DNA of 64,000 nt, from NCBI GenBank assembly GCA_032622095.1, contig CP136061.1:13779287-13843286 (forward strand). The letters are read 5' to 3'. This document shows, piece after piece, positions 3,457 through 60,640 of this stretch. Numbering within the stretch: the stretch's first letter is position 1; each line of letters opens with the position of its first letter. Source of the stretch: Siphonodentalium dalli. Lineage: Eukaryota; Mollusca; Scaphopoda; Gadilida; Siphonodentaliidae. The translations under genes were made by a program, and so were the position numbers. Under the pieces are notes generated by a model. It was not told where the DNA came from. It did no database searches and saw only the letters and a program-made list of their open reading frames with translations.

Positions 3457-3906
3457 CTAGCCGATGAGCCCGACGTTGTCCGGGCTATTCAAAAAACAAA
3501 TTTCAAGTCGATAGCTCTACCCAGTCCGACGTTGTCCGGGCTATTCAAAAACCAAATTTCAAGTCGATAGCTTTACCCGTTTCCGAGATCTGGTCTGAAC
3601 ATGCGCGAAGCTGGCGTCACACGGGCTCGGCGACCCGATAAAATTCGTATCCGGGGCAAGATACATTCACATAGCAAATTTCAAGTCGATAGCTCCACCC
3701 GTTTCCGAGATCTCGTCTGCGCATGCGCGAAGCGGGCGCCGCACGGCTCGACAATACGAGAACGACGACCACCTGGTCAAACTACACACATGTACCAAGT
3801 TTCGTCCCGATCGGTCGAGAATCGTAGATTTGTTTAAATGACATACATACATACATACAGACAGACATACATACAGACAGAGGTCTTCAAAAATATATAT
3901 GAGAGA
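3457..3906 (-). mobile_element. Helitron-like copy 6
   Basis: CTAG at 3457-3460, hairpin, two 122-bp-type units, the terminal module with an (ACAT/ACAG)n tract at about 3838-3880, and a TC end at about 3904-3906. Counterpart of copy 12 at 7057-7873, which has more 122-bp units. Confidence 0.6.
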
Positions 3907-3916
3907 TATATATATA

Positions 3917-5203: not shown

Positions 5204-5713
5204 CTAGCCGATGAGCCCGACGTTGTCCGGGCTATTCAAAAACCAAATTTCAAGTCGATAGCTCTACCCGTTTCCGAGATCTGGTCTGCGCATGCGCGAA
5301 GCTGGCGTCGCACGGGCTCGGCGACCCGATAAAATTCGTATCCGGGGCAAGATACATTCACATAGCAAATTTCAAGTCGATAGCTTTACCCGTTTCCGAG
5401 ATCTGGTCTGCGCATGCGCGAAGCTGGCGTCGCACGGGCTCGGCGACCCGATAAAATTCGTATCCGGGGCAAGATACATTCACATAGCAAATTTCAAGTC
5501 GATAACTCCACCCGTTTCCGAGATCTCGTCTGCGCATGCGCGAAGCGGGCGCCGCACGGGCTCGCCAATACGACAACGTTCACCGCCCGGTCAAACTACA
5601 CACACGTACCAAGTTTCGTCCCGATCGGTCGAGAATCGTAGATTTGTATAAATGACAAACAAACAAACAAACAAACAAACATACATACAGACAGAGGTCT
5701 TCAAAATATATAT

Positions 5714-5717
<4 letters not shown>
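5204..5717 (-). mobile_element. Helitron-like copy 9 carrying 122-bp satellite
   Basis: CTAG at 5204-5207, hairpin, 122-bp units at about 5265-5570 (blocks at 5292 and 5414), an (ACAA)n tract at about 5651-5690, and a TC end at 5716-5717 followed by (TA)n to 5745. Confidence 0.65.
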
Positions 5718-5745
<28 letters not shown>

Positions 5746-6007
5746 CTAGCCGCTGAGCCCGACGTTGTGCGGGCTATTCAAAAACCAAATTTCAAGTCGA
5801 TAGCTCCACCCGTTTCCGAGATCTGGTCTGCGCATGCGCGAAGCTGGCGTCGCACGGGCTCGCCAATACGACAATGTCCACCGCCTGGTCAAACTACACA
5901 CACGTACCAAGTTTCGTCCCGATCGGTCGAGAATCGTAGATTTGTATCAATGACAAACATACATACAAACATACAAACATACAGAGGTCTTCAAAATATA
6001 TATGAGA
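5746..6007 (-). mobile_element. Helitron-like copy 10 (short)
   Basis: Almost identical to copy 4 at an offset of 3600 bp, showing a segmental tandem duplication of the array. Confidence 0.65.
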
Positions 6008-6392
6008 TATAATCTTTCCATAAAAATTCAAGTAAAAATTGAAAAATATACGAAATAGTTGCCAGGAAGGTGATCGTATGAGGTTTTATGAACTTACTGA
6101 TTCTAGACCAGTATTATCGCGAGGTTATACCATAGCCTGTCAAAATTTCATCACAATGTTGTAAGTTTTACATAAATTAGTAAATTTTCTCATTTTTCAC
6201 AATTAGTTTTCAAATTTTAATCTTAGATCACGTTCAGACACCGTTATTTATAACTCCCTTCATCACTCTCTATACTGTTTCAGTTTATCCTTCTCAACCC
6301 AACTTGACATCCAGCATTCTAAGTGTAAACTACATAATTCGTTTTTCTGCAAAATTTATATTTTAGAGGGTGGGGTTTACACTCATATCACA
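6008..6392 (+). repeat. Second copy of the TIR-element fragment
   Basis: Duplicate of 2408-2795 with a 2-bp deletion (CACAATATGTTG changed to CACAATGTTG), sharing the deletion state of the source-like copy near 17100. Confidence 0.8.
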
Positions 6393-7056
6393 CTGCCCGG
6401 ACAAAAGTACCCGACAAACGTGCCCGTCGAAATCCATCCGGTTTTACCCGATTTGACCTTGAATTGATCATTTTGAAGGTCAATGTCAGATCGGGGTCAC
6501 GATTTGACCCGTCCAAAACACTCAGTGGACAAAAGTAACCCTATGTATACAATTTCGTCGAAATCCCATCAAAATTGGCGATTTGACCTTGAATTGACCA
6601 GATTTCAATGTCAAGGTCACGTCGCACAGGCAAATGAATATGCTTATGAGACTCCCCATACAAAAGTACTCCCACATGCCAAGTTTCATCGAAATCCCGT
6701 GATAATCGGGCGTTTGACTTTGAAATGACCGATTTCAAGGTCAGTGTCACGTCGCACGGACAAATTAATAAGTTTATACCACTCCCCGGCCGAAGGTACC
6801 CCCACATACCAAGTTTCATCGAAATCTCGTGATATTCGGGCGTTTGACCTTGAAATTACCCGATTTCAAGGTTAAGGTAACGTCGCACGGACAAATTAAT
6901 ATGCCTATGCCACCCCCCGGCCGAAAGTAGCCCCACATACCAAGTTTCATCGAAATCGGCAGGGCCGTTTTCGAGTTCATCGCGAACACACACACACACA
7001 CCCCCCATACACACACACAGATACACACAGACAGATCTTCCAAAATATATAATAGA
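6393..7056 (-). mobile_element. Helitron-like copy 11 (3'-truncated)
   Basis: Counterpart of copy 5 at an offset of 3598-3600. ~130-bp units, an (AC)n tract at about 6988-7020, TC end at 7056. Confidence 0.6.
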
Positions 7057-7873
7057 CTAGCCGATGAGCCCGACGTTGTCCGGGCTATTCAAAAACCAAA
7101 TTTCAAGTCGATAGCTCTACCCAGCCCGACGTTGTCCGGGCTATTCAAAAACCAAATTTCAAGTCGATAGCTTTACCCGTTTCCGAGATCTGGTCTGCAC
7201 ATGCGCGAAGCTGGCGTCGCACTGGCTCGGCGACCCGATAAAATTCGTATCCGGGGCAAGATACATTCACATACCAAATTTCAAGTCGATAGCTCCACCC
7301 GTTTCCGAGATCTCGTCTGCGCATGCGCGAAGCTGGCGTCGCACGGGCTCGGCGACCCGATAAAATTCGTATCCTGGGCAAGATACATTCACATACCAAA
7401 TTTCAAGTCGATAGCTCCACCCGTTTCCGAGATCTCGTCTGCGCATGCGCGAAGCTGGCGTCGCACGGGCTCGGCGACCCGATAAAATTCGTATCCGGGG
7501 CAAGATACATTCACATAGCAAATTTCAAGTCGATAGCTCCACCCGTTTTCGAGATCTCGTCTGCGCATGCGCGAAGCTGGCGTTGCACGGGCTCGGCGAC
7601 CCGATAAAATTCGTATCCGGGGCAAGATACATACACATAGCAAATTTCAAGTCGATAGCTCCACCCGTTTCCGAGATCTCGTCTGCGCATGCGCGAAGCG
7701 GGCGCCGCATGGGCGCCGCACGGGCTCGCCAATACGACAACGACGACCACCTGGTCAAACTACACACACGTACCAAGTTTCGTGCCGGTCGGTCGAGAAT
7801 CGTAGATTTGTATAAATGACATACATACATACAGACAGACATACAGACAGAGGTCTTCAAAATATATATGAGA
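7057..7873 (-). mobile_element. Helitron-like copy 12, four 122-bp units
   Basis: CTAG at 7057-7060 and hairpin. ATGCGCGAAGC blocks at 7201, 7323, 7445 and 7567 give an exact 122-bp period. The terminal module and TC end are at 7872-7873. It has more 122-bp units than copy 6, showing copy-number change by unequal exchange or replication slippage. Confidence 0.7.
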
Positions 7874-11628: not shown

Positions 11629-13241
11629 GGCCCGTTCCAAACGACGGATTTTTGTCGACTCGAATCTAATTGTATTAAATCCGTCGGTGATGCGTCTGCG
11701 GCCAATTTTGTTTCAGACGGACGCATCTTTGTCGTGTCGAATCTAATACATCGGTCGATTTATTTAAAGGTGTACTCCATGTTACCTTCACAAAATGGTC
11801 ACGCGTAGATATAGAGGCCTATATATACCGGTATGTTATACATATATATACTAAAATACAGTATATAAATTATGTATAAATATATGCGTGCTTGCAGCGC
11901 GAATATATGTGCATATGTATATGAGGATGTTTATAGTACATATAGTTATATAATATAATATAATAAAAATATAAAAGGCGCTACAAATAAATGTTAGATC
12001 GTGCATCCAATTGCCATATATGTGTATACCATGCATGTAAATACAGGTATACAAGAATTATTATAAATCAGAGACTACCACCCCTACCCTTATAATAAGG
12101 AATACCGGAATATATGAATTATTATAAATAAGAAGTTACCACCCCTATACCCCTCATAATAGGTAATACCGGTATATATGAATTATTATAAATAAGATCA
12201 GTGGTACCACCCCTACCCCTTATAATGAGGAATACCGGAATATATTAATTATAAATTATAAATCATAGGCTACCACCTATATATCCTTTATAATAAGGAA
12301 TACCGGTATCTATAAATTATTATAAATCATAGGCTACCATCCCTACCCCTCATACTAAGTAATACCGGTTTTTATGAATTATTATTAATCTGAGGCTACC
12401 ACCCCTACCCCTTATAATAAGGAATACCGGTATATATAAATTATTATAAATCATAGGCTACCACTCTGCCCCTTATAACAAGTAATACCTGAATATATGA
12501 ATTATTATAAATAAGAGGTTACCACCCCTTTACCCCTCATAATAAGTAATATCGATATATATGAATTATTATAAATCAGAAGTACCACCTCTGCCCCTTA
12601 TAATAAGTAATACCGGTAAATATATTAATTATTATACATCAGAGACTACCACCCCTATTCCTTACAATAAGGAATATCGGTTTATATGAATTATTATAAA
12701 TCAGTTGCTACAACCCCTACCCCTTATACCGCTATATATGGATTATTCTAAAACATTGATACTATATCCATTATAAGATGTGAGTCAGTGACATGCCATG
12801 TTCGTTGAGGAATCAAACTACCAATATAATTACAATTTGCACAATGTTACCTAAGCTATGCTTATAGATATATCTTTCTTTATGACAAAGAGAGCGTGCG
12901 ACAAATGACGTCATGTGGGTATTTCCTCAGATAAGGGGAGCCCCCTCATTATTATACCATTATCATATCATTATCATATCATTTGCATTCGTTCTTCGGC
13001 AACTTTCGGCTCTTCTCGTCACATGTATTAGATTCGAGTCGTCAAAAATCCGTCGTTTGAAACCAAGACGGATTTCAGACGCATCACCGACGAAGATTCG
13101 TCTGAATTGGACGGAGATTCGTCTGTGATGCGTCTGACACGGATCTAATTGTTTCAAACGTCGCATTTTTGACGCATTTAATACAATTGTGGGTCTGGTA
13201 TTAGATTCGAGTCGACAAAAATCCGTCGTTTGGAACGGGCC
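11629..13241. mobile_element. PIF/Harbinger-like non-autonomous element
   Basis: Perfect 42-bp terminal inverted repeats (11629-11670 and 13200-13241) beginning GGCCCGTTCCAAACGACGGA, flanked by TAA on both sides (11626-11628 and 13242-13244). A 3-bp TWA target duplication with GG-starting TIRs fits the PIF/Harbinger superfamily. The subterminal regions carry repeated GACGCATC/GATGCGTC and TCGTC motifs. No transposase or Myb-like frame is visible, so it would need a partner element for mobility. The 1613-bp interior holds a 62-bp minisatellite. Confidence 0.85.
12055..12760. repeat. ~62-bp minisatellite inside the Harbinger-like element
   Basis: Roughly 11-12 diverged units, each with GAATTATTATAAAT, a CTACCACCCCTACC block, CTTATAATAAGGAATACCGG and a TATAT stretch. 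Noncoding. Confidence 0.85.
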
Positions 13242-34751: not shown

Positions 34752-34757
34752 TACCTG
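34752..34757. other. Target duplication TACCTG, left
   Basis: Direct repeat of 48728-48733 bordering the palindromic element. The opposite arm of the host inverted repeat keeps a single uninterrupted copy (CAGGTA at 34215-34220). Confidence 0.85.
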
Positions 34758-35099
34758 TGATGATACCCCGCCCGTTTGGTGTCAGTCTAGACAGGTTGAC
34801 CTACATTCTCTGCAGTACATGGAGTTTGACCTATATTCTCCGCCCACGCGTCGGTCTATTTGTATACCGGTTGGACATGTCCGGACATGACCCGCTGGTT
34901 ATATCTAGACTTCTCCATATGCATGGTATATTATCTACATGTATATCACGTGATGATCTCGGTGGGGTAGCTTCAGTCTTGAATGTTAAAGTGACACTAG
35001 GCTCTCAATGGGGATGATTATTAAAGTGACACTCACTATGGATGAATGTTAAAGTAACACATGGCGCACACTGTGGGATAATGTTAAAGTGACACTCGC

Positions 35100-35260
35100 G
35101 TTGAAAACTTCAAAAATTTCAAAAAGTTCAAAAAGTTCAAAAAGTTCAAAAATTTCAAAAAGTTCAAAAAGTTCAAAAAGTTCAAAAAGTTCAAAAAGTT
35201 CACAAATTTCACAAATTTTCACAAATTTCAAAAAACTTCAAAAATTAAACAAAATTCAGG
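35100..35260. repeat. 10-bp minisatellite AAAAAGTTCA, left arm
   Basis: About 14 units, with the variant AAAAATTTCA interrupting after three standard units and followed by five. The right arm has four and four. Open frames of repeated S and K, or F, E and L, codons are artefacts. Confidence 0.9.
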
Positions 35261-35404
35261 ATTTAGTCAAAAATATGGCTTGTTACCATTCATCGGAAAG
35301 CTATGGGGGTACGGTGGTAAGCGCCACCGAAAACAGCAAGTGAGCGAGGGAAAAAAGAGAAAAATAACATGACAAGTGGTACATAGTACAATTTATTATA
35401 TTAA

Positions 35405-36157
35405 CTAGTCACTGTCACTTTCGTCCGAATTGTCATCACTTTCGTCAGATGTGTCATTTGTTTCGTCCATGAACTTTTCTAGCAATGGTCTGTACTTTAA
35501 TATTGACATTTTCACTGCATCACGATCTTCAAAACCATTCTTTATATATTTCTCCACTTTATCCATGACACTGTTGTGTAGAGTACCATTGCGCAGCCAC
35601 ATATTCTTTATTATTGTCCAAGCATAAACATTCATAAATAGCCTCATGCCTTCAGTTTTAAGATCTGTACTTTTAAGGTCCTTGTCAGCTTGTACTTTTG
35701 CCTCTTTTTCTGTCGAGCCATTTTCCATATACGTTTCCACGTTATCACTCCATGCTTCTTGTGCTTTATCTCTACTCTCATCACACAAACTTTTGAAGTA
35801 TTCATCTTCATTCGATTTAATTTTCTTATTCTGACTATCATCCGTGTCTTCAGTTAATTTTCGTTTTAACTTATTTTCTTGACACCAGTTTTTTACGTGT
35901 CTCTGGACATCATGCTGATCTTCGAACAAAAGCCCACAGTCATTGCAAGGGTACGATATGTCTTCTCGAATGCCTATGTTTTTATGGTTTTCTTTATTAA
36001 TTTCATTGATCTCACCAGGTGTCCTTATGTCCTTAGTATAGCCATTATGTTGACCCTGGGGCACAATATAATTATATGTCATGCACTCCCGTTGACCAGG
36101 GAGATCTCTGTCATCATATTTCATCTCATTCCGTTGATCCACGAAAATATTACTCAT
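35405..36157 (-). CDS. C2HC zinc-finger protein with acidic tail, left arm (intact)
   Basis: A 250-codon uninterrupted frame, ATG to TAG. Residues 71-92 form one zinc finger of pattern C-x2-C-x12-H-x4-C (C71, C74, H87, C92), followed by basic, NLS-like stretches (KLKRK at 96-100, KKIK at 111-114). Two related helical segments, VETYMENGSTEKEA (about 140-153) and VEKYIKNGFEDRDA (about 201-214), look like an internal duplication. The last 20 residues are almost all D, E and S. A nuclear nucleic-acid or chromatin-binding role is inference. AATAAA lies about 10 nt after the stop, and no introns are needed. It is transcribed outward, toward the arm tip. I do not recognise a named family; zinc finger plus acidic tail proteins of this style occur in large invertebrate DNA transposons, as I recall. 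Confidence 0.75.
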   Translation of the reverse strand: MSNIFVDQRNEMKYDDRDLPGQRECMTYNYIVPQGQHNGYTKDIRTPGEINEINKENHKNIGIREDISYPCNDCGLLFEDQHDVQRHVKNWCQENKLKRKLTEDTDDSQNKKIKSNEDEYFKSLCDESRDKAQEAWSDNVETYMENGSTEKEAKVQADKDLKSTDLKTEGMRLFMNVYAWTIIKNMWLRNGTLHNSVMDKVEKYIKNGFEDRDAVKMSILKYRPLLEKFMDETNDTSDESDDNSDESDSD

Positions 36158-37509
36158 ATTATAGACTTCCCTTTGAAGACCTTTGTATGTGACAATGATC
36201 CGTAATATTGTTTCTAAGTGACACTGGCCAGTGAAACTGATACTACGGGTATGAACTAGCCAACTTCACATCGTAACAATAATAAAAGGGACACTTCATC
36301 TATATCAGTCTCAAAACGTGTTGGTACACATCTGTGTGGAAACTAAAACCAATCACTCTTCGTCCGTCATCCGTACATAATTGTAATATAATTTTCTCAG
36401 AAACCACGGGATCCCTTTGGCTGAAATTTGGTCTCAACATGGGATCAGAAATTATCCATGGAAGACAACAGTGTCCGTGTGGGGAGAAGCTTCGTAGTGT
36501 TTCGCTGTCGCCATGGTGTTTGTTTGGGTATAGGCATGGGTGGTGAGTGTGGTTCTCATACGGTCTGAACTAGCCTTTACTGACTGAGGTAATTTAGTGC
36601 ACATGTCATCACTTCACTGATAACCATTATATGGTCAAATCCCAACACTATCAAACGCAATGTTTCAATAATGGGTTTTCTTAAAATTTTGACTAAATAT
36701 TGGTTATATTATACGCATCAGCGATCCTTCTTAATAACGCTCTGTATATTTTCAAACGCATTGCACTAAATGGGTTTGGAATAGCCATACAGGAAAGGAG
36801 AAACTGAGGTCCTGGGTAGGTCGACTGCATATAGCAGTATATATGGGGTACAGACATGGACAGCAATGGGTTCCTCGTGGCTTCTGGCCTACACATGACA
36901 TATTAAAGTTAACCACACCCATCGGCGCGCCTTTAATGGGCTATGAAGCGCCATACAGGCTCGAATCATGGCCTTCGCCATGTGTTTCTATTTGAACCCA
37001 CATTAGTAACTAAATAAAATCTTTCTCTCCAGGTTGTTTCACGCCATAACCTTGATTTGGAAAGCTTGAAGGGCTAATTAAGCTTCAATTTAAATCCCAA
37101 CATTATTTGAAGAACGTATCTGGTTAAACATGTACACCATAGTAAGCTCATTTAATTCAAAGAGCTTCACACATAGTCCCACTAGTAATGATGTGTCGTT
37201 ATTTACTGCAGAAATGGTCATATAGAATACAATACAACACATTTTGGTCACATACCTTAAAGGTGCACGTCACTTTCGCAAGATATCGAACTGACCATGT
37301 ATAGAGTGGAATGACATGTCGGGTATCAAATGTATAATCAGTTCCAGTATTTCGTCCATAAGGCAGTTTTGGTTGTAACATCATTGTGTATGACGGTTCA
37401 TTCATATGATACCTTAGCGGTTGCACACGATACTGTCTGTTGTATTTTATGTCTTATATCATGTATATTAATTGCTCCATGGATGGTAGGAGTATGGCAT
37501 TGGTGTCTG
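36158..37509. other. Noncoding segment of the left arm, upstream of the zinc-finger gene
   Basis: Presumably holds the promoter of the minus-strand gene ending at 35405. Includes CATCCGTACATAATTG and a TGGCTGAAATTTGGTC phrase near 36418 that looks like a dispersed repeat. Short frames at 36334-36546 and 37199-37426 show no recognisable motif. Confidence 0.4.
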
Positions 37510-38850
37510 GTTCTTCGATGTATTCTAGTCATAGTTCATTCATATTATTACTCTAAAATCTCCATTAAATGGAGAAACTAAAGAGCCCATATTATGTAGA
37601 CTAGTGTATAAATACTTACTTCATGCATTATTTTTATCAATTATATGTATTATAACTCCCATCAAGATAGGCTGTTATACAGAGGAAACAAAGCATGTAC
37701 CAAGTGACAGTCTGTACCAAGTGACAGTCTCATGTCACGAAAGGCCTACTATGTGGACACATTTTCTTATCAAAACGCTCTATTATGTAGGGGGTTATCA
37801 ACCATTGGTCTGGAAAAGGCATACGAACGCAAGGCGTGTATACACATTTATTCGATGTACTCTTTAATCGTCGATTTCTCTTTATTGTCGTTAATTTATA
37901 GCATTATTAGTAGGAATCTAAACTCGCCGTTATATTGAGAAAATAATGCGTCAATACCAGTCAATACTGCTTTATTGGCGGTAAATGAAATTATTGAATC
38001 ATGTATCGCAGCTAAACAAGCGAGACAACTGATCACAACTGATTACAAAAATTAGTAATATTTATGAAGCCTTGAGTGGGTTGTAATACACAGTGTGAAT
38101 TTTCATTATTGCTACCATTTAAGGAAACATGCCCCCGATAGGGCTACTATGCGAACACATGTCTATATTAATTTCACATATTCCTTACCGTTCATTCGTA
38201 TATACTCCAAGCTCTCTGTTAATACAGAGGCATCAAAACATTGGTCTGGAAGAGACCTACTATGTGGATGCGTGTATACATATTTACTTGATGTATTCTT
38301 TAATCGTTCATTTCTCTTTATTATCGTTCATTTATAGCATTATTAGAAGAAATTTAGTCTAAAATCTCCATTACATGGAGACAATAAAGAGCCCATATGG
38401 TGTAGACTAATGCATAAATACTTACTTCATGTATTCTTTTCACCAATTATATGTATTGTACATCCTATACATTTAGTCTGTTATACAGAGGAAACAAAGC
38501 ATGTACTACGTGGCAGTTTCATATGACGATAAGACCTACCATGTGAACACATGTGCATATTAATTTCACATATTCTTCTCAAAACGCTCTATTTTATACG
38601 GGGGGTATCAAACATTGGTCTGGAAAAGGCATGCTATGTGGACGCGTGTATACATATTGACTTCATATATGCATTCATAGTTCATTTCTCTTAATTGTCG
38701 TTCATTTAATAGCATTATTAGTAGAAATAGAGTCTAAAACCGTCGGTATATGGAGAATATATAGCGTCAATACTGTTTTATTGTTGGTAACTCAAATTAT
38801 TGCATCATGTATCGCAACTAAACAAGCGAGATAACTCATAAATTCTTAAT
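37510..38850. repeat. ~370-430-bp diverged tandem repeats, left arm
   Basis: Four units, each with TCTCCAT-x-TGGAGA, TAGCATTATTAGTAG, a TATGTGGACGCGTGTATACA block and CATTGGTCTGGAAAAGGCAT. Mirror image of 44635-45975. Confidence 0.8.
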
Positions 38851-40159
38851 AGTTCTGATGTCTATGGCAGTTCACACAGTGTATATTTTCATTGTTGTTA
38901 CCATTTTAGTGCATACATTACTGATTTCTGTGTAAGAACGCCGGTCTCCATTGTTGTTATGATTGTGCCTATAACTGTCCATATTCTTAAAGCAAGTACG
39001 GTACCTCTATGTGATATGATCTATAAAAATTTCCATTTTCACAGGTAAATCACGTATAAACGCTCTTTAATGTATAGTTAAACTGAGTTTTCACATGCAG
39101 GGCTATGTCTTTGTGGACTATATACGTGGTATACTTCAGTATATACACGAAGTGAATGTGTTCTAAGTATGCGTATCTGATTTATGTATACGTCCGTGTT
39201 TCTTAAAGCAAATCCAATACATATTAGTGCGTTATATTATGATGTACATTAAGTGCCCTTTTCACTGTTAAATCAAGTAAAAAGGCCCTCTACTATAGTT
39301 AACTATTCAGTTCCACATACGCTATAAGATCTATGGTGGTCCGGTGTGTCTTATCAATATGCCATTATATGCACGAATGTAATGTGTTCAAATATGTGGG
39401 TTATCATGTATACTTTAATGTTAAAGTATATAAGCACTCTTTAAGATATGCATATGCAGAATGTTGCCTCTTTACACTGACAGAAAAAAAAGGAATATAT
39501 AATTTTGAGTACTACTCTTCATAAAACGTTAGAAAACCATAATCTAACAACGAATATCGAAGAACAATGTAATTACTTGGTAAGCATTGTAAATATTTCG
39601 TCTGTTTTAAATAAAATGGAAATATTTCGTCTATTTGAAATACAGTTGGAAGCAACAATCAAGTATTTAAATGAAATTTGGACCAAAATCTTATAATTTG
39701 AGAAAACGTATATAATTTCTATCGAAGTCTTATAATAAAGGAAGGCTTTGTGCGAATCCATTCGGTCTAATGTGTGAATGTGTTCATCATCGCAAATATA
39801 ATGATGCAGAAATTAATATTTCCTAGAATAATGTTAACATAGCTTGTATTTAACCGAAATAATATAGCATTTGAGTTAAAATGTTTCATATTAGGACCAT
39901 AACGAACCAATGCATAAAAATACAATATTTTGTTTTTCATTCTCGATCAAAATAATGCAGGGTTGTCAATTATCAACAAAAAACAAATACTTTGAAACAA
40001 AAACGATGACATAAGAAGGAATATCCAAGAGCTAGTGTGAAAATAACCCTCACATTTATAAAAAAAAACAATAAAATTAAAGTTTCCGAGTAAGTCCTTC
40101 AAATTTATTGAATGTTTTCGTCTATGTTGGATCAAATTTGACACAAAAATCAATTAGCT
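38851..40159. other. AT-rich noncoding segment of the left arm
   Basis: No gene or clear repeat. 60-odd-codon frames (39333-39524, 39505-39696) are AT-rich and uninformative. Confidence 0.45.
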
Positions 40160-41365
40160 CACTAACAGTTCGCGCAATATCTCATATTTTGAGAAAACGT
40201 TTGCAATTTTAGACAACAATATTGCTAGTGAAGGTGAATATTTCATCCTGGAACTCATGAAATATGATAAAAATAGATGTAAAGACACTTCACGAGCCCT
40301 CATATATTTGAGTTATGAACATAAAGTCATCTCATAGTGCCATTGTACCCCATAATTTGGTCAGGAGAAATATGTATTTCATATTTGACCCTTCATCTGT
40401 GGTAAAAAATGAATTAAGGGACATGGGAGTGGTGTCCCTAGACATTAACCTAGAGCATAAATTGACTCAATTATGCAATTTTAGGCAACATTCTTGCCAG
40501 GGAAAGTGTATATTTCATGTTGGAACTCATCCAATGTGATAAACATGCATCATAAGACACTTAATGAGCTCTGATGACTTTGAGTTATGACAACAACGGC
40601 ATCTCATACTAGATTGTAAGCCATAATTTGGTCAGGAAAAGTGTAAATTTCATATTTTATCCTACATGTGTTTTAACAATCAATGTAATTACACCCCATC
40701 GGTCGCCTAGACACAGCGTAAATGTTCTCAAGTTTTCAATTGTAGGCCACAATGTCGGCAGTGAAGGTAAACATTTCATGTTGGAACCCATGAAATGTGA
40801 TAAAATGGATAAAAAGACACTTCCTGAGTCCTTATGACTGAGTTATGAACATAAAGGGAACTCATAGTGTATTGTAGGTCATAATTTGGTCAGGAAAATT
40901 GTAAATTTCATGTCTTAAGCTCCATGTGTTTAAAAAATATATGTAATTACAACCATTGGGTCCCTAGAGATCAATCCACAGTCCATATGTAGTCCATATG
41001 CAATTTTAGGGAACAGTTTTGCTAGTGAAGGTGAACATTCCATGCTGGAACTCATGAAATATGATAAAAATAGATGAAAAGACACTTTCTGAGGCCTTGG
41101 TCGGGAGAAATGTGTATTGTATTTTGACCCTTGATGCGTGGTAGCAATCAATGAAATTACACCCCACGGTATCCTCAGATATGAAGCAACATCATAAATG
41201 CACTCAGTTTTTGGCAATTTAGACAACATTGTTGATAGGGAAGTTGTACATGTCATGTTGGAACTGGTGAAATGTGATAATAATTGATCAAAAGACACTC
41301 GATGAGCCCTGATGGGTTTCAATTATGGTCATAAAGGCATATGATAGTGTCATTATACAACGGGG
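40160..41365. repeat. 215-270-bp diverged tandem repeats, left arm
   Basis: Five units recognisable by AAAAGACACTT-x-TGAG, CATAATTTGGTCAGGA, TTCATGTTGGAAC and AATTACACCCCA. Mirror image of 42120-43325. Confidence 0.8.
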
Positions 41366-41596
41366 AAATTTGTGAAGCGCTAACAAAGCGTATCTGCACG
41401 GTGTTATACGAATCAAAATGATCCTGATATAAGAAATGCAATCTAGATCATACTCAGTATCTTCGTATCGACTGAATATATCGTTATTCGATGGTGTTCC
41501 TGACATACCTCCGTCTTTACTTTTCTTATGCTTTTGTAGATTGTAGTTCGACGATAATATCTTTCTGCACAAATGGCACCCGTGTATTGTCTCGAA
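41288..41596 (-). CDS. Zinc-finger-like frame near the centre, left arm
   Basis: Mirror of 41888-42196. The frame opens after a stop with no ATG before the finger: GCHLCRKILSSNYNLQKHKK has C-x2-C-x12-H but no final ligand. The first ATG comes later (MSGTPSNN). Only the first third has protein-like composition; the rest runs into the tandem repeats. Possibly a spliced or decayed exon. Confidence 0.3.
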   Translation of the reverse strand, partial: FETIHGCHLCRKILSSNYNLQKHKKSKDGGMSGTPSNNDIFSRYEDTEYDLDCISYIRIILIRITPCRYALLALHKFPRCIMTLSYAFMTIIETHQGSSSVF

Positions 41597-41727
41597 TCAT
41601 GGGAAGAACTATCGTCCTTATACCAGCGAAAAGATGAGCAAATATGGTGTGGTATTATAAACTCGCCGCGTTCGTACCTCTATTTATCGTTTAGAGTAAT
41701 TGTTCTTAGATAAAAAAAATAGGCGCG

Positions 41728-41756
41728 GCGGCAGTGGGGATGAGGGGGGCCGCACG
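41728..41756. other. 29-nt palindrome spacer
   Basis: The only asymmetric centre: GCGGC and GCCGC inside it can still pair, leaving a G-rich loop of about 16 nt (AGTGGGGATGAGGGGG). Flanked by GGCGCG/CGCGCC and T-rich/A-rich runs. Confidence 0.9.
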
Positions 41757-41887
41757 CGCGCCTATTTTTTTTATCTAAGAACAATTACTCTAAACGATAA
41801 ATAGAGGTACGAACGCGGCGAGTTTATAATACCACACCATATTTGCTCATCTTTTCGCTGGTATAAGGACGATAGTTCTTCCCATGA

Positions 41888-42196
41888 TTCGAGACAATAC
41901 ACGGGTGCCATTTGTGCAGAAAGATATTATCGTCGAACTACAATCTACAAAAGCATAAGAAAAGTAAAGACGGAGGTATGTCAGGAACACCATCGAATAA
42001 CGATATATTCAGTCGATACGAAGATACTGAGTATGATCTAGATTGCATTTCTTATATCAGGATCATTTTGATTCGTATAACACCGTGCAGATACGCTTTG
42101 TTAGCGCTTCACAAATTTCCCCGTTGTATAATGACACTATCATATGCCTTTATGACCATAATTGAAACCCATCAGGGCTCATCGAGTGTCTTTTGA
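41888..42196 (+). CDS. Zinc-finger-like frame near the centre, right arm
   Basis: Open frame to TGA at 42194-42196, transcribed away from the centre. The incomplete C-x2-C-x12-H finger is at about 41906-41960; the first ATG is at 41978. A TATAATACC stretch about 60 bp upstream of the finger (41826) could be promoter-like. Identical to the left-arm copy. Confidence 0.3.
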   Translation, partial: FETIHGCHLCRKILSSNYNLQKHKKSKDGGMSGTPSNNDIFSRYEDTEYDLDCISYIRIILIRITPCRYALLALHKFPRCIMTLSYAFMTIIETHQGSSSVF

Positions 42197-43325
42197 TCAA
42201 TTATTATCACATTTCACCAGTTCCAACATGACATGTACAACTTCCCTATCAACAATGTTGTCTAAATTGCCAAAAACTGAGTGCATTTATGATGTTGCTT
42301 CATATCTGAGGATACCGTGGGGTGTAATTTCATTGATTGCTACCACGCATCAAGGGTCAAAATACAATACACATTTCTCCCGACCAAGGCCTCAGAAAGT
42401 GTCTTTTCATCTATTTTTATCATATTTCATGAGTTCCAGCATGGAATGTTCACCTTCACTAGCAAAACTGTTCCCTAAAATTGCATATGGACTACATATG
42501 GACTGTGGATTGATCTCTAGGGACCCAATGGTTGTAATTACATATATTTTTTAAACACATGGAGCTTAAGACATGAAATTTACAATTTTCCTGACCAAAT
42601 TATGACCTACAATACACTATGAGTTCCCTTTATGTTCATAACTCAGTCATAAGGACTCAGGAAGTGTCTTTTTATCCATTTTATCACATTTCATGGGTTC
42701 CAACATGAAATGTTTACCTTCACTGCCGACATTGTGGCCTACAATTGAAAACTTGAGAACATTTACGCTGTGTCTAGGCGACCGATGGGGTGTAATTACA
42801 TTGATTGTTAAAACACATGTAGGATAAAATATGAAATTTACACTTTTCCTGACCAAATTATGGCTTACAATCTAGTATGAGATGCCGTTGTTGTCATAAC
42901 TCAAAGTCATCAGAGCTCATTAAGTGTCTTATGATGCATGTTTATCACATTGGATGAGTTCCAACATGAAATATACACTTTCCCTGGCAAGAATGTTGCC
43001 TAAAATTGCATAATTGAGTCAATTTATGCTCTAGGTTAATGTCTAGGGACACCACTCCCATGTCCCTTAATTCATTTTTTACCACAGATGAAGGGTCAAA
43101 TATGAAATACATATTTCTCCTGACCAAATTATGGGGTACAATGGCACTATGAGATGACTTTATGTTCATAACTCAAATATATGAGGGCTCGTGAAGTGTC
43201 TTTACATCTATTTTTATCATATTTCATGAGTTCCAGGATGAAATATTCACCTTCACTAGCAATATTGTTGTCTAAAATTGCAAACGTTTTCTCAAAATAT
43301 GAGATATTGCGCGAACTGTTAGTGA
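42120..43325. repeat. 215-270-bp diverged tandem repeats, right arm
   Basis: AGTGTCTT landmarks at about 42185, 42399, 42664, 42922 and 43193 give unit lengths of 214-271 bp. Confidence 0.8.
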
Positions 43326-44634
43326 GCTAATTGATTTTTGTGTCAAATTTGATCCAACATAGACGAAAACATTCAATAAATTTGAAGGACTTACTCGGAA
43401 ACTTTAATTTTATTGTTTTTTTTTATAAATGTGAGGGTTATTTTCACACTAGCTCTTGGATATTCCTTCTTATGTCATCGTTTTTGTTTCAAAGTATTTG
43501 TTTTTTGTTGATAATTGACAACCCTGCATTATTTTGATCGAGAATGAAAAACAAAATATTGTATTTTTATGCATTGGTTCGTTATGGTCCTAATATGAAA
43601 CATTTTAACTCAAATGCTATATTATTTCGGTTAAATACAAGCTATGTTAACATTATTCTAGGAAATATTAATTTCTGCATCATTATATTTGCGATGATGA
43701 ACACATTCACACATTAGACCGAATGGATTCGCACAAAGCCTTCCTTTATTATAAGACTTCGATAGAAATTATATACGTTTTCTCAAATTATAAGATTTTG
43801 GTCCAAATTTCATTTAAATACTTGATTGTTGCTTCCAACTGTATTTCAAATAGACGAAATATTTCCATTTTATTTAAAACAGACGAAATATTTACAATGC
43901 TTACCAAGTAATTACATTGTTCTTCGATATTCGTTGTTAGATTATGGTTTTCTAACGTTTTATGAAGAGTAGTACTCAAAATTATATATTCCTTTTTTTT
44001 CTGTCAGTGTAAAGAGGCAACATTCTGCATATGCATATCTTAAAGAGTGCTTATATACTTTAACATTAAAGTATACATGATAACCCACATATTTGAACAC
44101 ATTACATTCGTGCATATAATGGCATATTGATAAGACACACCGGACCACCATAGATCTTATAGCGTATGTGGAACTGAATAGTTAACTATAGTAGAGGGCC
44201 TTTTTACTTGATTTAACAGTGAAAAGGGCACTTAATGTACATCATAATATAACGCACTAATATGTATTGGATTTGCTTTAAGAAACACGGACGTATACAT
44301 AAATCAGATACGCATACTTAGAACACATTCACTTCGTGTATATACTGAAGTATACCACGTATATAGTCCACAAAGACATAGCCCTGCATGTGAAAACTCA
44401 GTTTAACTATACATTAAAGAGCGTTTATACGTGATTTACCTGTGAAAATGGAAATTTTTATAGATCATATCACATAGAGGTACCGTACTTGCTTTAAGAA
44501 TATGGACAGTTATAGGCACAATCATAACAACAATGGAGACCGGCGTTCTTACACAGAAATCAGTAATGTATGCACTAAAATGGTAACAACAATGAAAATA
44601 TACACTGTGTGAACTGCCATAGACATCAGAACTA
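43326..44634. other. AT-rich noncoding segment of the right arm
   Basis: Mirror of 38851-40159. No gene seen. Confidence 0.45.
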
Positions 44635-45975
44635 TTAAGAATTTATGAGTTATCTCGCTTGTTTAGTTGCGATACATGATGCAATAATTTGAGTTACCAA
44701 CAATAAAACAGTATTGACGCTATATATTCTCCATATACCGACGGTTTTAGACTCTATTTCTACTAATAATGCTATTAAATGAACGACAATTAAGAGAAAT
44801 GAACTATGAATGCATATATGAAGTCAATATGTATACACGCGTCCACATAGCATGCCTTTTCCAGACCAATGTTTGATACCCCCCGTATAAAATAGAGCGT
44901 TTTGAGAAGAATATGTGAAATTAATATGCACATGTGTTCACATAGTAGGTCTTATCGTCATATGAAACTGCCACGTAGTACATGCTTTGTTTCCTCTGTA
45001 TAACAGACTAAATGTATAGGATGTACAATACATATAATTGGTGAAAAGAATACATGAAGTAAGTATTTATGCATTAGTCTACACCATATGGGCTCTTTAT
45101 TGTCTCCATGTAATGGAGATTTTAGACTAAATTTCTTCTAATAATGCTATAAATGAACGATAATAAAGAGAAATGAACGATTAAAGAATACATCAAGTAA
45201 ATATGTATACACGCATCCACATAGTAGGTCTCTTCCAGACCAATGTTTTGATGCCTCTGTATTAACAGAGAGCTTGGAGTATATACGAATGAACGGTAAG
45301 GAATATGTGAAATTAATATAGACATGTGTTCGCATAGTAGCCCTATCGGGGGCATGTTTCCTTAAATGGTAGCAATAATGAAAATTCACACTGTGTATTA
45401 CAACCCACTCAAGGCTTCATAAATATTACTAATTTTTGTAATCAGTTGTGATCAGTTGTCTCGCTTGTTTAGCTGCGATACATGATTCAATAATTTCATT
45501 TACCGCCAATAAAGCAGTATTGACTGGTATTGACGCATTATTTTCTCAATATAACGGCGAGTTTAGATTCCTACTAATAATGCTATAAATTAACGACAAT
45601 AAAGAGAAATCGACGATTAAAGAGTACATCGAATAAATGTGTATACACGCCTTGCGTTCGTATGCCTTTTCCAGACCAATGGTTGATAACCCCCTACATA
45701 ATAGAGCGTTTTGATAAGAAAATGTGTCCACATAGTAGGCCTTTCGTGACATGAGACTGTCACTTGGTACAGACTGTCACTTGGTACATGCTTTGTTTCC
45801 TCTGTATAACAGCCTATCTTGATGGGAGTTATAATACATATAATTGATAAAAATAATGCATGAAGTAAGTATTTATACACTAGTCTACATAATATGGGCT
45901 CTTTAGTTTCTCCATTTAATGGAGATTTTAGAGTAATAATATGAATGAACTATGACTAGAATACATCGAAGAACC
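44635..45975. repeat. ~370-430-bp diverged tandem repeats, right arm
   Basis: Landmark TCTCCAT/TCTCAAT at about 44730, 45108, 45543 and 45910. Confidence 0.8.
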
Positions 45976-47326
45976 AGACACCAATGCCATACTCCTACCA
46001 TCCATGGAGCAATTAATATACATGATATAAGACATAAAATACAACAGACAGTATCGTGTGCAACCGCTAAGGTATCATATGAATGAACCGTCATACACAA
46101 TGATGTTACAACCAAAACTGCCTTATGGACGAAATACTGGAACTGATTATACATTTGATACCCGACATGTCATTCCACTCTATACATGGTCAGTTCGATA
46201 TCTTGCGAAAGTGACGTGCACCTTTAAGGTATGTGACCAAAATGTGTTGTATTGTATTCTATATGACCATTTCTGCAGTAAATAACGACACATCATTACT
46301 AGTGGGACTATGTGTGAAGCTCTTTGAATTAAATGAGCTTACTATGGTGTACATGTTTAACCAGATACGTTCTTCAAATAATGTTGGGATTTAAATTGAA
46401 GCTTAATTAGCCCTTCAAGCTTTCCAAATCAAGGTTATGGCGTGAAACAACCTGGAGAGAAAGATTTTATTTAGTTACTAATGTGGGTTCAAATAGAAAC
46501 ACATGGCGAAGGCCATGATTCGAGCCTGTATGGCGCTTCATAGCCCATTAAAGGCGCGCCGATGGGTGTGGTTAACTTTAATATGTCATGTGTAGGCCAG
46601 AAGCCACGAGGAACCCATTGCTGTCCATGTCTGTACCCCATATATACTGCTATATGCAGTCGACCTACCCAGGACCTCAGTTTCTCCTTTCCTGTATGGC
46701 TATTCCAAACCCATTTAGTGCAATGCGTTTGAAAATATACAGAGCGTTATTAAGAAGGATCGCTGATGCGTATAATATAACCAATATTTAGTCAAAATTT
46801 TAAGAAAACCCATTATTGAAACATTGCGTTTGATAGTGTTGGGATTTGACCATATAATGGTTATCAGTGAAGTGATGACATGTGCACTAAATTACCTCAG
46901 TCAGTAAAGGCTAGTTCAGACCGTATGAGAACCACACTCACCACCCATGCCTATACCCAAACAAACACCATGGCGACAGCGAAACACTACGAAGCTTCTC
47001 CCCACACGGACACTGTTGTCTTCCATGGATAATTTCTGATCCCATGTTGAGACCAAATTTCAGCCAAAGGGATCCCGTGGTTTCTGAGAAAATTATATTA
47101 CAATTATGTACGGATGACGGACGAAGAGTGATTGGTTTTAGTTTCCACACAGATGTGTACCAACACGTTTTGAGACTGATATAGATGAAGTGTCCCTTTT
47201 ATTATTGTTACGATGTGAAGTTGGCTAGTTCATACCCGTAGTATCAGTTTCACTGGCCAGTGTCACTTAGAAACAATATTACGGATCATTGTCACATACA
47301 AAGGTCTTCAAAGGGAAGTCTATAAT
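45976..47326. other. Noncoding segment upstream of the right-arm zinc-finger gene
   Basis: Mirror of 36158-37509. The stretch just before ATG 47327 is the presumed promoter region. No clear TATA box. Confidence 0.4.
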
Positions 47327-48080
47327 ATGAGTAATATTTTCGTGGATCAACGGAATGAGATGAAATATGATGACAGAGATCTCCCTGGTCAACGGGAGTG
47401 CATGACATATAATTATATTGTGCCCCAGGGTCAACATAATGGCTATACTAAGGACATAAGGACACCTGGTGAGATCAATGAAATTAATAAAGAAAACCAT
47501 AAAAAACATAGGCATTCGAGAAGACATATCGTACCCTTGCAATGACTGTGGGCTTTTGTTCGAAGATCAGCATGATGTCCAGAGACACGTAAAAAACTGG
47601 TGTCAAGAAAATAAGTTAAAACGAAAATTAACTGAAGACACGGATGATAGTCAGAATAAGAAAATTAAATCGAATGAAGATGAATACTTCAAAAGTTTGT
47701 GTGATGAGAGTAGAGATAAAGCACAAGAAGCATGGAGTGATAACGTGGAAACGTATATGGAAAATGGCTCGACAGAAAAAGAGGCAAAAGTACAAGCTGA
47801 CAAGGACCTTAAAAGTACAGATCTTAAAACTGAAGGCATGAGGCTATTTATGAATGTTTATGCTTGGACAATAATAAAGAATATGTGGCTGCGCAATGGT
47901 ACTCTACACAACAGTGTCATGGATAAAGTGGAGAAATATATAAAGAATGGTTTTGAAGATCGTGATGCAGTGAAAATGTCAATATTAAAGTACAGACCAT
48001 TGCTAGAAAAGTTCATGGACGAAACAAATGACACATCTGACGAAAGTGATGACAATTCGGACGAAAGTGACAGTGACTAG
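47327..48080 (+). pseudogene. C2HC zinc-finger gene, right arm (frameshifted)
   Basis: Same gene as 35405-36157, but an A-run has six A instead of five (47501-47506) at about codon 60, just before the zinc finger, so the frame breaks: the first part stops at 47545 and the finger, internal duplication and acidic tail continue in another frame to TAG at 48080. Everything else appears identical to the left copy. It is either a recent mutation, an assembly homopolymer error, or a slip site; the intact left copy indicates that five A is the coding state. Confidence 0.75.
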
Positions 48081-48224
48081 TTAATATAATAAATTGTACT
48101 ATGTACCACTTGTCATGTTATTTTTCTCTTTTTTCCCTCGCTCACTTGCTGTTTTCGGTGGCGCTTACCACCGTACCCCCATAGCTTTCCGATGAATGGT
48201 AACAAGCCATATTTTTGACTAAAT

Positions 48225-48385
48225 CCTGAATTTTGTTTAATTTTTGAAGTTTTTTGAAATTTGTGAAAATTTGTGAAATTTGTGAACTTTTTGAACTTTT
48301 TGAACTTTTTGAACTTTTTGAAATTTTTGAACTTTTTGAACTTTTTGAACTTTTTGAACTTTTTGAAATTTTTGAAGTTTTCAAC
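48225..48385. repeat. 10-bp minisatellite, right arm
   Basis: Complement TGAACTTTTT units, with the variant unit placed after four and before four standard units, unlike the left arm (three and five). Confidence 0.9.
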
Positions 48386-48727
48386 GCGAGTGTCACTTTA
48401 ACATTATCCCACAGTGTGCGCCATGTGTTACTTTAACATTCATCCATAGTGAGTGTCACTTTAATAATCATCCCCATTGAGAGCCTAGTGTCACTTTAAC
48501 ATTCAAGACTGAAGCTACCCCACCGAGATCATCACGTGATATACATGTAGATAATATACCATGCATATGGAGAAGTCTAGATATAACCAGCGGGTCATGT
48601 CCGGACATGTCCAACCGGTATACAAATAGACCGACGCGTGGGCGGAGAATATAGGTCAAACTCCATGTACTGCAGAGAATGTAGGTCAACCTGTCTAGAC
48701 TGACACCAAACGGGCGGGGTATCATCA

Positions 48728-48733
48728 TACCTG
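48728..48733. other. Target duplication TACCTG, right
   Basis: Follows the terminal CA of the palindromic element and continues into TATAACTGG of the Penelope-like inverted repeat. Confidence 0.85.
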
Positions 48734-49489: not shown

Positions 49490-49895
49490 TCTAATATATA
49501 TTTTGGGACATCTGTCTGTCTGTCTGTTTGCCTGTTAGCTATGGCCGGGAAAACTGCTGGACGGATTTTGAGGACATTTGATACATATGGGTACTTTTGT
49601 CCAGGGAGTGTTTTGGACGGGTCAAATCGTGACCCCTGACCTGTCCTTGACCTTCAAAATGGTCAATCCATGTCAAATCGGGTAGAACAGACGGATTTCC
49701 ACGAAATTTGATACCTAGGGGTACTTTGTCCGGGGTGTGTTTTGGACGGGTAAAACGTGACCCCGACCTGACATTGACCTTTAAAATGGTCAGATCAAGG
49801 TCAAATCGAGTAAAACGGACGGATTTCGACGAAATTTGATACCTAGGGAAACTTTTGTCCGGGGAGTCTTTTGGACAGGTCAAATCGTGACAATA
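49490..49895 (+). mobile_element. Helitron-like copy, 3'-truncated
   Basis: Starts A|TCTAATATATATTTTGGGAC with (TCTG)n, then three ~110-130-bp units with TTTTGGACGGGTCAAATC. It breaks off at about 49895 without hairpin or CTAG. Confidence 0.68.
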
Positions 49896-57268: not shown

Positions 57269-58025
57269 CTAGAAGGTGACCCGACTTCGTCCGGGCTTTG
57301 ACCTTGAATTGACCATTTTGAAGGTCAATGTCAGGTGGGGTAACGATTTGACCCGTCCAAAACACTGCCCGGACAAAAGTACCCGACAAAAGTACCCGTC
57401 GAAATCCATCCAGTGTTACCCGACTTGACCTTGAATTGATGATTTTGAAGGTCAAGGTCAGGTCGGGGTCCCGATTTGACCCGTCGAAAACACTCAATGG
57501 ACAAAAGTAACCATATGTATCAAATTTCGTGGAGATTCCAACAAAATTCGCGATTTGACCTTGAATTGACCCGATTTCAAGGTCAAGGTCACATCGCACG
57601 GGCACATGAATAGGCTTATGAGACTCCCCATACGAAAGTATCCCTAGACACTAATTTTCATCGAATATCCCGTGATATTCGGGCGTTTGACCTTGAAATG
57701 ACCCGATTTCAAGGTCAAGGTCACGTCGCGCGGGCAAATTAAAATGCCTATGCCACTTCCCGACCGAAAGTACACACACATACCAAGCTTCATCGAAATT
57801 CCATGATATTCGGGCGTTTGACCTTGAAATCACCCGATTTCAAGGTCAAGTCGCACGGGCAATTTAATAGGCCGATGTTACTTCCCGGCCGAAAATACCC
57901 CCACATACCAAGTTTCATCGCAATCGGGTATGCCGTTTTCGAGTTCATAGCGAACACACACAAACACACCCTCACACACCACACACCACACACACACATA
58001 CAGATCTTCCAAAATATATAATAGA
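57269..58025 (-). mobile_element. Helitron-like copy
   Basis: CTAG at 57269-57272, hairpin GACCCGACTTCGTCCGGGCT, about five ~130-bp units, (AC)n tract, TC end at 58024-58025. Confidence 0.72.
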
Positions 58026-58523
58026 CTAGGTGGTGGACCCGACTTCGTCCGGGCTGTTTCCCCTCTGCTTTTCGGCGTATTCCGCGATTTTAACTTGAAT
58101 TGATTATTTTGAAGGTCAAGGTCAGGTGGGGTTACAATTTGACCCGTCCAAAACACTGCCCGGACAAAAGTACCCGACAAAAGTACCCGTCGACATCCGT
58201 CTGATTTTACCCAATTTGACCTTGAATTGACCATTTTGAAGGTCATGGTCAGATCGGCGTAACGATTTGACCCGTCCAAAAGACTCATCGGACAAAAGTG
58301 CCTCTAGTTACCAAATTTCGTCAAAATCCGTCCCGTTTTACCCGATTTGACATTGAATTGATCTTTTTGAAGGTCAAGGCCAGGTCGGGGTCACATCCAA
58401 AACCATCCCTGAAAAAAAACACCCCTAGGTATCAAATTTCGTCAAAATCCGTCGGGCAGTTTTCCCGGCCATCGCTAACACACAGACACACAGGCAGACA
58501 GAAGTCCCAAAACATATAGTAGA
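58026..58523 (-). mobile_element. Helitron-like copy
   Basis: CTAG at 58026-58029 and hairpin, CCCTCTGCTTTTCGGCG, three units, ACACAGACACACAGG tract, TC end at 58522-58523. Confidence 0.72.
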
Positions 58524-59274
58524 TAGCTGGTGGACCCGACTTCGTCCGGGCTATTTCCCCCTCTGCTTTTCGGCGGATTGCGCGATTTGACCTTGAATTG
58601 TCCATTTTGAAGGCCAAGGTCAGGTGGGGGTCATGATTTTACCCGCCCAAAACACTGCCCGGACAAAAGTATCTGACAAAAGTACCCGTCGAAATCCGTC
58701 TGATTTTACCCGATTTGAATTGACCATTTTGAAGGTCAAGGTCACGTCGGGGTCACGATTTGACCCGCCCAAAACACTACGTGGACCAAAGTAACCCTAG
58801 GTATCAAATTTCGTCGAAATCCCGTCAAAATTTGCGATTTGACCTTGAATTGACCATTTTGAAGGTCAAGGTTAGGTCGGGGTCATGATTTGATCCGTCC
58901 AAAACACTATGTGGAGCAAAGTAACTCTAGTTATCATATTTCGTCGAAATCCGTCCTTTTTATCCGATTTGACCTTGAATTGACCTTTTTGAAGATCAAG
59001 GTCAGGTCGGGGTAACGAGTTGACCCCACTCACAGGACAAAAGTACCCATAGTTACCAAATTTTGTCGAAATCCGTCCTGTTTTACCCGAATTGTCATTG
59101 AATTGACCTTTTTGAAAGTCAAGGTCGGGTCGTGGTCACGATTTGACCCATCCAAAACCATCCCTGGAAAAAGTTACCCCTCGGTATCATATTTCGTCAA
59201 AATCCGTCGGGGAGTTTTCCCGGCCATAGCTAACACACACACAGACAGACAGAAGTCCCGAAATATATAGTAGA
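58524..59274 (-). mobile_element. Helitron-like copy
   Basis: The 3' end shows TAGC instead of CTAGC, followed by TGGTGGACCCGACTTCGTCC. Five units, (ACAC/ACAG)n, TC end at 59273-59274. Confidence 0.7.
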
Positions 59275-59580: not shown

Positions 59581-60640
59581 TTATGCCTTTTCAATCAAGA
59601 TAAATGCATTCCGCTGTTGCCGTCCGTTTTGCATTCGTAGTTTCGTACGCATTTGTAACAGGTTAGCAACGCCGAAGGCAATAAAGAGCGTTAGTCGGTT
59701 AACAACTCCAAATATGGTCAATATAAAGATCGTGATTGCCTTAACCCCACAGTGCCGAGGACGGTGATTTTGATGATTGGGAGTGGAGAATGAGTTATCT
59801 GAGCTTCTCGAAGACGCGACAACGACGCAATTCATGTGGTCTCCACACTTGAACACATGGTGTACCTTTTCCGTTCTGTTATATTTTGCTCTTTTTAACA
59901 GTTTTTTCATATTACGTGGCTGTCTTTTACTGTCCAAAACATTGTTGCCTGGGAATACTTTCACCATGCGTGTGTCCTTATGTAAAATTGGTAACAAGCT
60001 CCTTGCGATTCCCACCTGGTTAGGGTTGTGAGGGTTGTGTGTTGTTACGTATGGAATTGTTTCAACCTCACATACTGTTTGTTTCTCCTGACGCAAATTC
60101 TCAACTGGTATTTGTTTGGCTTTGTTTATGCCACCCAGGATGAGATTTAACGGATAATGCTGCTTTTGGAAAAATGATTCCAATTTCCGTAATCTTATAT
60201 CTCGAGTGTCTGGATTGTCCACTAACGCGCACACTCTCCTAGCTAAACAGAATGGGATGTTCATTTGTGTGTGTGCTGGGTGACATGAATGAAAATCGAG
60301 ATATTGATGTGTGTCAGTATTTTTGTAATATATATCATTTTCTATTTTAGTTCCGAGTTTTCTTATTAGGACATCCAAGATGTTTGTCATCAAAATAGAA
60401 TGTATTGCACTCCAAAACTGTTCGAATTCTTTCCGTAATAAAATCCGCTTTAACTCCATTCTTATTAAGATTCTCACATATGAATCGGTTATCGATTTTG
60501 TCACCACATTTCTCCAACCAGAATTTAATTGCTTCGATGCCCAAGTCATGTGGTATATTAGTGAACAGGCTAACTATTTCGAAACTTGTTAGGATTGATT
60601 CAGTTTCTATTGTTCTTGGTAACTGACTACCAACATGGCG
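59581..60640 (-). pseudogene. Penelope-like reverse transcriptase fragment, catalytic core deleted
   Basis: Two minus-strand frames. The first (about 60640-60347) has LTSFEIVSLFTNIPHDLG, IEAIKFWLEKCGD and NTFYFDDK, the fingers and motif A region of Penelope-like RTs, where S-L-Y/F-T-N-I-P-H is characteristic. It breaks near 60375, and the second frame (to 59581) resumes at ILDVLIRKLGTKI, TDTHQYLDFHSCHPAHT, IPFCLARRVC and SKRQPRNMKKLLKRAK, the thumb region. The expected motif B and YADD core between them is missing, apparently by deletion. The C-terminal end (VKAITIFILTIFG and onward) is unlike a GIY-YIG domain. Non-functional. Confidence 0.75.

Follow-up and report, generated by a model that had tools for sequence, protein, structure and literature searches.

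The DNA analysed here is a 64-kb stretch of the scaphopod Siphonodentalium dalli (C1:13779287-13843286, hereafter the window), which contains an insertion of 13,970 bp that is almost one perfect palindrome. This element probably derives from a Polinton/Maverick-type (adintovirus-like) element, as a non-autonomous palindrome that propagates via a foldback form and is inserted by the integrase of a partner. Evidence for this is given by related palindromes elsewhere in the genome, by the likeness of their arms, by a common hairpin centre, and by a packaging ATPase encoded in relatives of the window copy.

It is assumed that Polintons replicate by protein priming, and to our knowledge free forms of them are hardly known. 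Where, as in this family, one arm has visibly served as template for the other, the genome would preserve evidence of the way in which such DNA may replicate and yield defective genomes. Palindromes of 3.6-14 kb are present here as insertions in an animal chromosome assembly, and their common central hairpin provides a concrete sequence to seek in free DNA.

Palindromic copies, their arms and their centres

A first-pass annotation of the window described two arms of ~6.97 kb, a 29-nt spacer, TG...CA ends, and a TACCTG duplication, all of which proved exact to the base (alignment of 6970/6971 nt; Table 1). In global alignment the arms differ by 3 mismatches and one 1-nt indel, and an inverted-pair scan recovers the same structure as pairs of 5749 and 1226 nt. 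The element ends read TGATGATACCCC...GGGGTATCATCA. Both copies of TACCTG are flush with the palindrome edges, so that the ends of the palindrome and of the insertion coincide as described. With up to 3 mismatches allowed, the 20-nt terminus occurs within the window only at the two element ends (mean of 0.01 in shuffles).

The genome (2.23 Gb, 9 contigs) was searched with the outer 1243 bp of the window element. Scoring of 40 out of 3051 candidates gave 55 matches, which collapse to at least 26 loci including the window (L009-L028 and L031-L035; the element at L026 runs on into L030); the copy number is a lower bound. Both ends were placed at 22 of the 26 loci, while L027, L033, L034, and L035 have a single recognised end. 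Tips of the family begin with TGATGA and finish with TCATCA. An exact 6-bp duplication flanks 21 of the 22 two-ended copies, the window included, and all 21 are of different sequence, e.g., ATGAAT on both sides of L019. Thus the 6-bp duplication recurs at other copies, as was to be expected from the first-pass annotation. The sole exception is L013, for which TATGCT fits if the right tip has lost one CAT unit.

Inverted pairs cover at least 94% of the length in 14 of 21 measured elements, namely the window, L009-L018, L020 (measured on the retrieved part), L021, and L031. Eleven of these full palindromes are 7.1-8.0 kb in size; L013, L031, and the window copy measure 3.6, 6.0, and 14.0 kb, respectively. 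Other copies are thus mostly long palindromes and not short terminal inverted repeats around a unique interior. The L030/L026 element (L030 1289 to L026 9232; 17,444 bp, target duplication ACCAAT), which stands outside the whole-element palindrome measurement, contains its own inverted pair, with an 872-nt spacer between the halves, and two copies of a zinc-finger frame. Since the palindromes form a family with exact 6-bp duplications, the palindrome is the transposing unit, as had been proposed from the window alone. A one-off inverted duplication at the window is ruled out by the related palindromes at other loci. Foldback reads occur in long-read libraries, and a sequencing or assembly artefact of this kind was considered. 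It is exceedingly improbable, because palindromes of this kind are found at many loci and have other arms, flanks, and duplications there; at the window, moreover, the sequences on either side are unrelated, an exact target duplication bounds them, and the arms differ at 4 places.

The two arms of an element resemble each other down to their variable tips. Over the first 70 nt, the arms of 11 out of 16 elements are identical (edit distance 0), and those of 15 are within an edit distance of 2, the outlier being L025 with 19. Between elements, the median distance over the same 70 nt is 19 (minimum 0), and 2 of 120 pairs differ by 3 or less. Comparison of 8 of the 14 full palindromes left 3198 columns for the analysis of private variants. 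In these columns, 44 variants are restricted to one element and are found in both of its arms (L021, 23; L016, 7; L017, 7; L009, 5; L015, 2). The arms of an element are sisters in 11 of 13 elements for the outer 1400 bp and in 6 of 8 for whole arms, with low support at some nodes, and for the outer 1400 bp the nearest arm is the element's own in 11 of 13. The private variants and variable tips that the arms mostly share indicate that one arm is templated on the other. The arms mostly do not group with those of other elements, which argues against palindromes moving without arm renewal. Private both-arm variants together with matching tips, apart from the exceptions given below, are the pattern expected of snapback (self-complementary) replication; gene conversion could also keep arms alike.

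Chromosomal gene conversion, which keeps the arms of sex-chromosome palindromes alike, is the main rival for the arm data. The palindromes would then move as ordinary double-stranded units, and later conversion would keep their arms identical. The arms are close and inverted, an arrangement that favours conversion, and both-arm private variants and sister arms would likewise result. Nevertheless, one-sided losses persist in L022, L024, L025, and L028. Most of the 44 left-right differences are private (36), and they are spread over the arm and form one cluster near columns 502-604. The tips adjoining the target duplication agree between the two arms of a copy but vary from copy to copy. Furthermore, a hairpin centre common to palindromes with different arms is not predicted. 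Considering these observations, we regard this rival as rather unlikely.

A hairpin centre whose stem is rich in G+C and whose loop is rich in G was found in 12 of 17 elements scanned; it was not seen in that scan for L012, L013, L023, L024, and L025. Matches to the window centre, 37-45 nt long and 84-89% identical, are present at 10 of 20 loci, but the flanking arms do not match. Its folding as DNA is strong (-35.3 kcal/mol, z -12); as one half of a palindrome must fold onto the other anyway, the evidence lies in the shared centre sequence and not in the fold energy. That near-perfect palindromes share a hairpin centre suggests that the family may copy itself by folding back.

Exceptions in centre position are given by L013 and possibly by the asymmetric L032 and L033, and deletions across the centre could have produced them. 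In case of L013 (1-4029), the centre of the palindrome, which has a spacer of 40 nt, falls within the ATPase gene and not at the usual hairpin; either folding back took place at a different point, or a deletion has spanned the centre. L032 and L033 are both situated on C7, about 0.6 Mb apart, and due to their identical left flank they are probably one insertion that was duplicated along with the neighbouring DNA, the two copies being rearranged in different ways afterwards. A random snapback position was rejected as a general rule, since most centres are one related sequence. The loops of L015 and L017 are exact reverse complements of each other. Because a palindrome can insert in either orientation, this is uninformative, and loop flip-flop was dropped as evidence.

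About 2.9 kb into the arm of the 7.1-8 kb copies, a tip-like TGATGATACCC directly follows a motif of the GTTCTTAGGT type. A near-identical motif, GTTCTTAGAT, is located directly before the hairpin in the window arm. From these motifs, the internal tip may be the joint of two half-units, each reaching from tip to hairpin.

Encoded proteins and kinship with Polintons

The first-pass annotation linked the palindrome to Polintons/Mavericks, and this link is strengthened by the proteins of its relatives, in addition to the 6-bp duplications and repeated tips. The 7.1-8 kb relatives carry a frame of 561-600 aa, which is uninterrupted in 22 arms and disrupted in others, and the encoded protein consists of a C2H2 finger, an ATPase, a second finger, and an acidic tail, in this order. 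Pox_A32 of Pfam is matched by the L016 protein above the cut-off (E 5.7e-6). In the window, the last about 244 residues of P0001 correspond to the C-terminal zinc-finger/acidic-tail part of this protein; the ATPase core is absent and the zinc-finger matches remain below the Pfam cut-off. The protein gene noted as duplicated is indeed present in both arms, but an intact frame of 250 aa exists in the left arm only: the 1-nt arm difference shifts the frame of the right copy, which is open for 203 aa.

Out of 154 protein relatives, 120 were listed. Among those listed, 21 of the 22 that name an organism are from bivalves, and the remaining one is from a bacterial metagenome-assembled genome. PF02456, which we take to be the adenovirus IVa2 family, is carried by 4 of the 120. 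The model of a scallop relative, P0002, has a mean pLDDT of 73.8, mostly above 85 in the ATPase core. Its best match in the PDB is the packaging ATPase B204 of STIV, next comes HerA, and RecA/RAD51-type ATPases follow; among viral models, the best matches include A32-like and adenovirus IVa2 ATPases. Sequence searches against solved structures gave only zinc fingers by name and one RNA-editing protein, and no encoded relative was found in the viral contigs examined. Between elements, the ATPase frame shows a pN/pS of 0.42, calculated from 22 still-open frames with the other arms broken and a pS of 1.1%; with so few open frames and so low a pS, selection on the ATPase is a weak argument and was set aside.

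In contig L036 (1-5687), filed under a Bathymodiolus symbiont, a broken ATPase frame of 49% identity is located about 1.5 kb from a PolB-related frame. PF03175 (DNA polymerase B family) is carried by 6 of 10 protein relatives of the latter; a Pfam scan of the frame itself gave no polymerase match. Despite its filing, L036 is probably mussel (Polinton) DNA. Since L036 looks like mussel DNA and P0042, filed under a Sedimenticola metagenome-assembled genome, is also a protein relative, symbiont assemblies seem to carry host DNA.

The longest frame in the left arm and centre of the window element comprises 286 codons from stop to stop, and no protein-primed polymerase B was recognised there. Due to the fact that no polymerase B was recognised in the listed frames, the window element is not considered an autonomous member of the Polinton/Maverick group. 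Pfam matches of further frames of L016, L026, L030, L034, and L035 are restricted to zinc fingers, one reverse transcriptase, and one sub-threshold match. The reverse transcriptase frame (PF00078; L035 8422-9315) is situated 9.3 kb downstream of the tip end and has the appearance of a host retrotransposon.

Alternatively, the family could be a Foldback/Galileo-like DNA transposon, the terminal repeats of which have grown to fill the element and which has acquired an ATPase gene from a Polinton. For Galileo, long terminal repeats are described, as are forms with extended terminal inverted repeats (excerpt of PMC4168063). Target duplications of Galileo are reported there as 7 bp, and 8 bp in three copies, in contrast to the 6 bp at 21 of 22 copies here. 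Within the elements, no viral or transposon gene other than that of the packaging ATPase was recognised, and growth of repeats leaves the related hairpin centre of palindromes with different arms unexplained. We therefore consider this alternative improbable.

The window copy and its surroundings

Homology of the window element to the 8-kb arms ends at arm position 1383. Except for 121-155 nt near the centre, the arm interior has no match in L009-L035; this short section, which belongs to the 102-aa frame at 41288-41596, matches the zinc-finger frame beside the inverted pair in L026 with 77% identity at the DNA level. Judged from these alignments, the window copy is a chimera of a 1.4-kb Polinton-type end, about 5.4 kb of other DNA, and the hairpin, all mirrored. 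Snapback and dimerisation had both been suggested as its origin. The arm data and the common hairpin centre support snapback, but the window copy is not a plain dimer of one element, because only the outer 1383 bp and the central hairpin are common to it and the more frequent copies.

Table 1. Features of the palindromic element in the window
Feature	Position	Strand	Remark
Left target-site duplication TACCTG	34752..34757	.	
Left arm, 6970 nt, begins TGATGATA	34758..41727	+	
Outer segment also present in palindromes at other loci, 90-99% identical over the queried part	34758..36140	+	
9-bp tandem repeat within the outer segment	35104..35244	.	
250-aa ORF P0001	35405..36157	-	
Arm interior, 29-41% G+C, inner limit approximate	36141..41500	.	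no match to 27 compared stretches (L009-L035)
Degenerate-repeat blocks (two) in the arm interior	37548-38839, 40199-41358		
102-aa frame, C2H2-like motif below Pfam cut-off	41288..41596	-	
Central hairpin: 28-bp stem, 5 more pairs with 3-nt bulge, 16-nt G-rich loop	41700..41784	.	related centre in other palindromes
29-nt inter-arm spacer	41728..41756	.	
Right arm, 6971 nt, reverse complement of left arm	41757..48727	-	
Mirror copy of the outer common segment	47344..48727	-	
Mirror copy of the ORF, 203 aa open	47469..48080	+	
Right target-site duplication TACCTG	48728..48733	.	

Outside the palindrome, the window contains a 769-aa frame with a reverse transcriptase domain (PF00078; 53427-55736) and a 322-aa frame without Pfam match (59581-60549). 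Tandem arrays of about 122-132-bp repeats are located at 214-7714 and 57554-59208 and also at 49559-49891, and about 11 tandem copies of a 62-bp unit occupy 12040-12728.

Proposed propagation and comparison with known systems

In the propagation we favour, the protein-primed polymerase of a partner would start at the TGATGATA tip and run down one arm. The strand would then fold back at the central hairpin, and the second arm would be copied from, or repaired against, the first. The product would be a linear palindrome with two identical TG...CA ends, inserted by the integrase of the partner with a 6-bp duplication. In case of the window copy, the arm interior would have been replaced by other DNA and the mirror structure remade from that one arm. 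We infer protein priming from the tips and the kinship with Polintons, and likewise the foldback step and the partner's polymerase and integrase. In an extended form, which we put forward tentatively as possible rather than probable, the family would consist of linear replicons with unlike ends, a terminal-protein-primed tip as in adenoviruses and Polintons and a conserved hairpin telomere. These might switch back and forth between a hairpin and a full palindrome integrated into the genome. Each genomic copy would then be the double-stranded readout of one half-genome, and the internal tip of the 7.1-8 kb copies would join two half-genomes.

Apart from gene conversion, several observations weigh against a palindromic Polinton derivative that propagates by folding back. 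Seven of the 21 measured copies are partly or not palindromic (0-80%), with inverted-pair fractions of 0.80 (L019), 0.76 (L032), 0.60 (L022 and L023), 0.57 (L028), 0.23 (L024), and 0.00 (L025); these are read as later deletion derivatives. The sample of loci leans to near relatives, because candidates were picked by likeness to the outer 1243 bp. Both-arm private variants are lacking in L011, L014, and L018, and L021 alone contributes 23 of the 44; for 8 of the 44 left-right differences, both states also occur in other elements, which is what exchange between copies would produce. The sister relation of the arms fails in L011 and L017 for the outer 1400 bp and in L014 and L018 for whole arms, and in L010 and L014 an arm is nearer to that of another element, by less than 0.1%. 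The fold of P0002 alone is not specific, since after three ranks the PDB matches are RecA/RAD51-type ATPases. Polymerase, integrase, and capsid genes were not recognised among the frames of the window, L016, L018, L021, L025, L026, L030, L034, and L035, of which some were scanned with Pfam. Furthermore, no autonomous partner with these tips was found among the loci examined. Finally, the tips differ from the (AG)3 and (AGT)2 motifs of vertebrate Mavericks (excerpt of PMC8097293).

The family shares with Polintons/Mavericks and adintoviruses the 6-bp target duplications and ends made of repeated tips; a tandem-repeated TGATGATA tip is present at both ends of the 16 elements compared. Such tip repeats are held to permit jumping-back initiation in Mavericks (excerpt of PMC8097293), and another polintovirus has the tip GTGTGTGT (excerpt of PMC4061559). 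Adintoviruses combine an adenovirus-like replicase with a retrovirus-like integrase (excerpt of PMC11071296). An A32/HerA-type packaging ATPase is encoded in L016 and, judged by the frame, in the other 7.1-8 kb relatives, whereas the window copy keeps the C-terminal part only, and a PolB-related frame lies near the ATPase in the related contig L036. In contrast to the terminal repeats around a unique interior of Polintons/Mavericks, the copies described here are palindromes with a hairpin centre, and those examined have no recognised polymerase, integrase, or capsid gene. None of the titles and abstract openings listed in searches of open PMC text, which most subscription papers fall outside, deals with palindromic Polintons.

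Hairpin-telomere replicons of parvovirus or poxvirus type have a closed hairpin end in a free form; the window centre can fold, and the sequence at hand is the integrated one. SYREC adenovirus 12 comprises symmetric recombinants of a viral end and host DNA and is a free defective virus of cultured cells. It is, like the window copy, a giant palindrome of a viral-type terminus and other DNA; the present elements are a dispersed insertion family instead, and the other DNA in the window copy may be of host or of another origin.

Very long terminal inverted repeats of varied length are shared with Foldback/Galileo elements, which differ by 7-bp duplications and a transposase of the P superfamily (excerpt of PMC4168063); here the duplications are of 6 bp, and no transposase was recognised in the frames scanned. 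Snapback genomes of adeno-associated virus, which occur in symmetric and asymmetric forms, likewise consist of one genome end and its mirror copy (excerpt of PMC8235507). These are packaged parvovirus virion DNA, whereas the elements described here constitute an integrated genomic family with TG...CA ends and 6-bp duplications.

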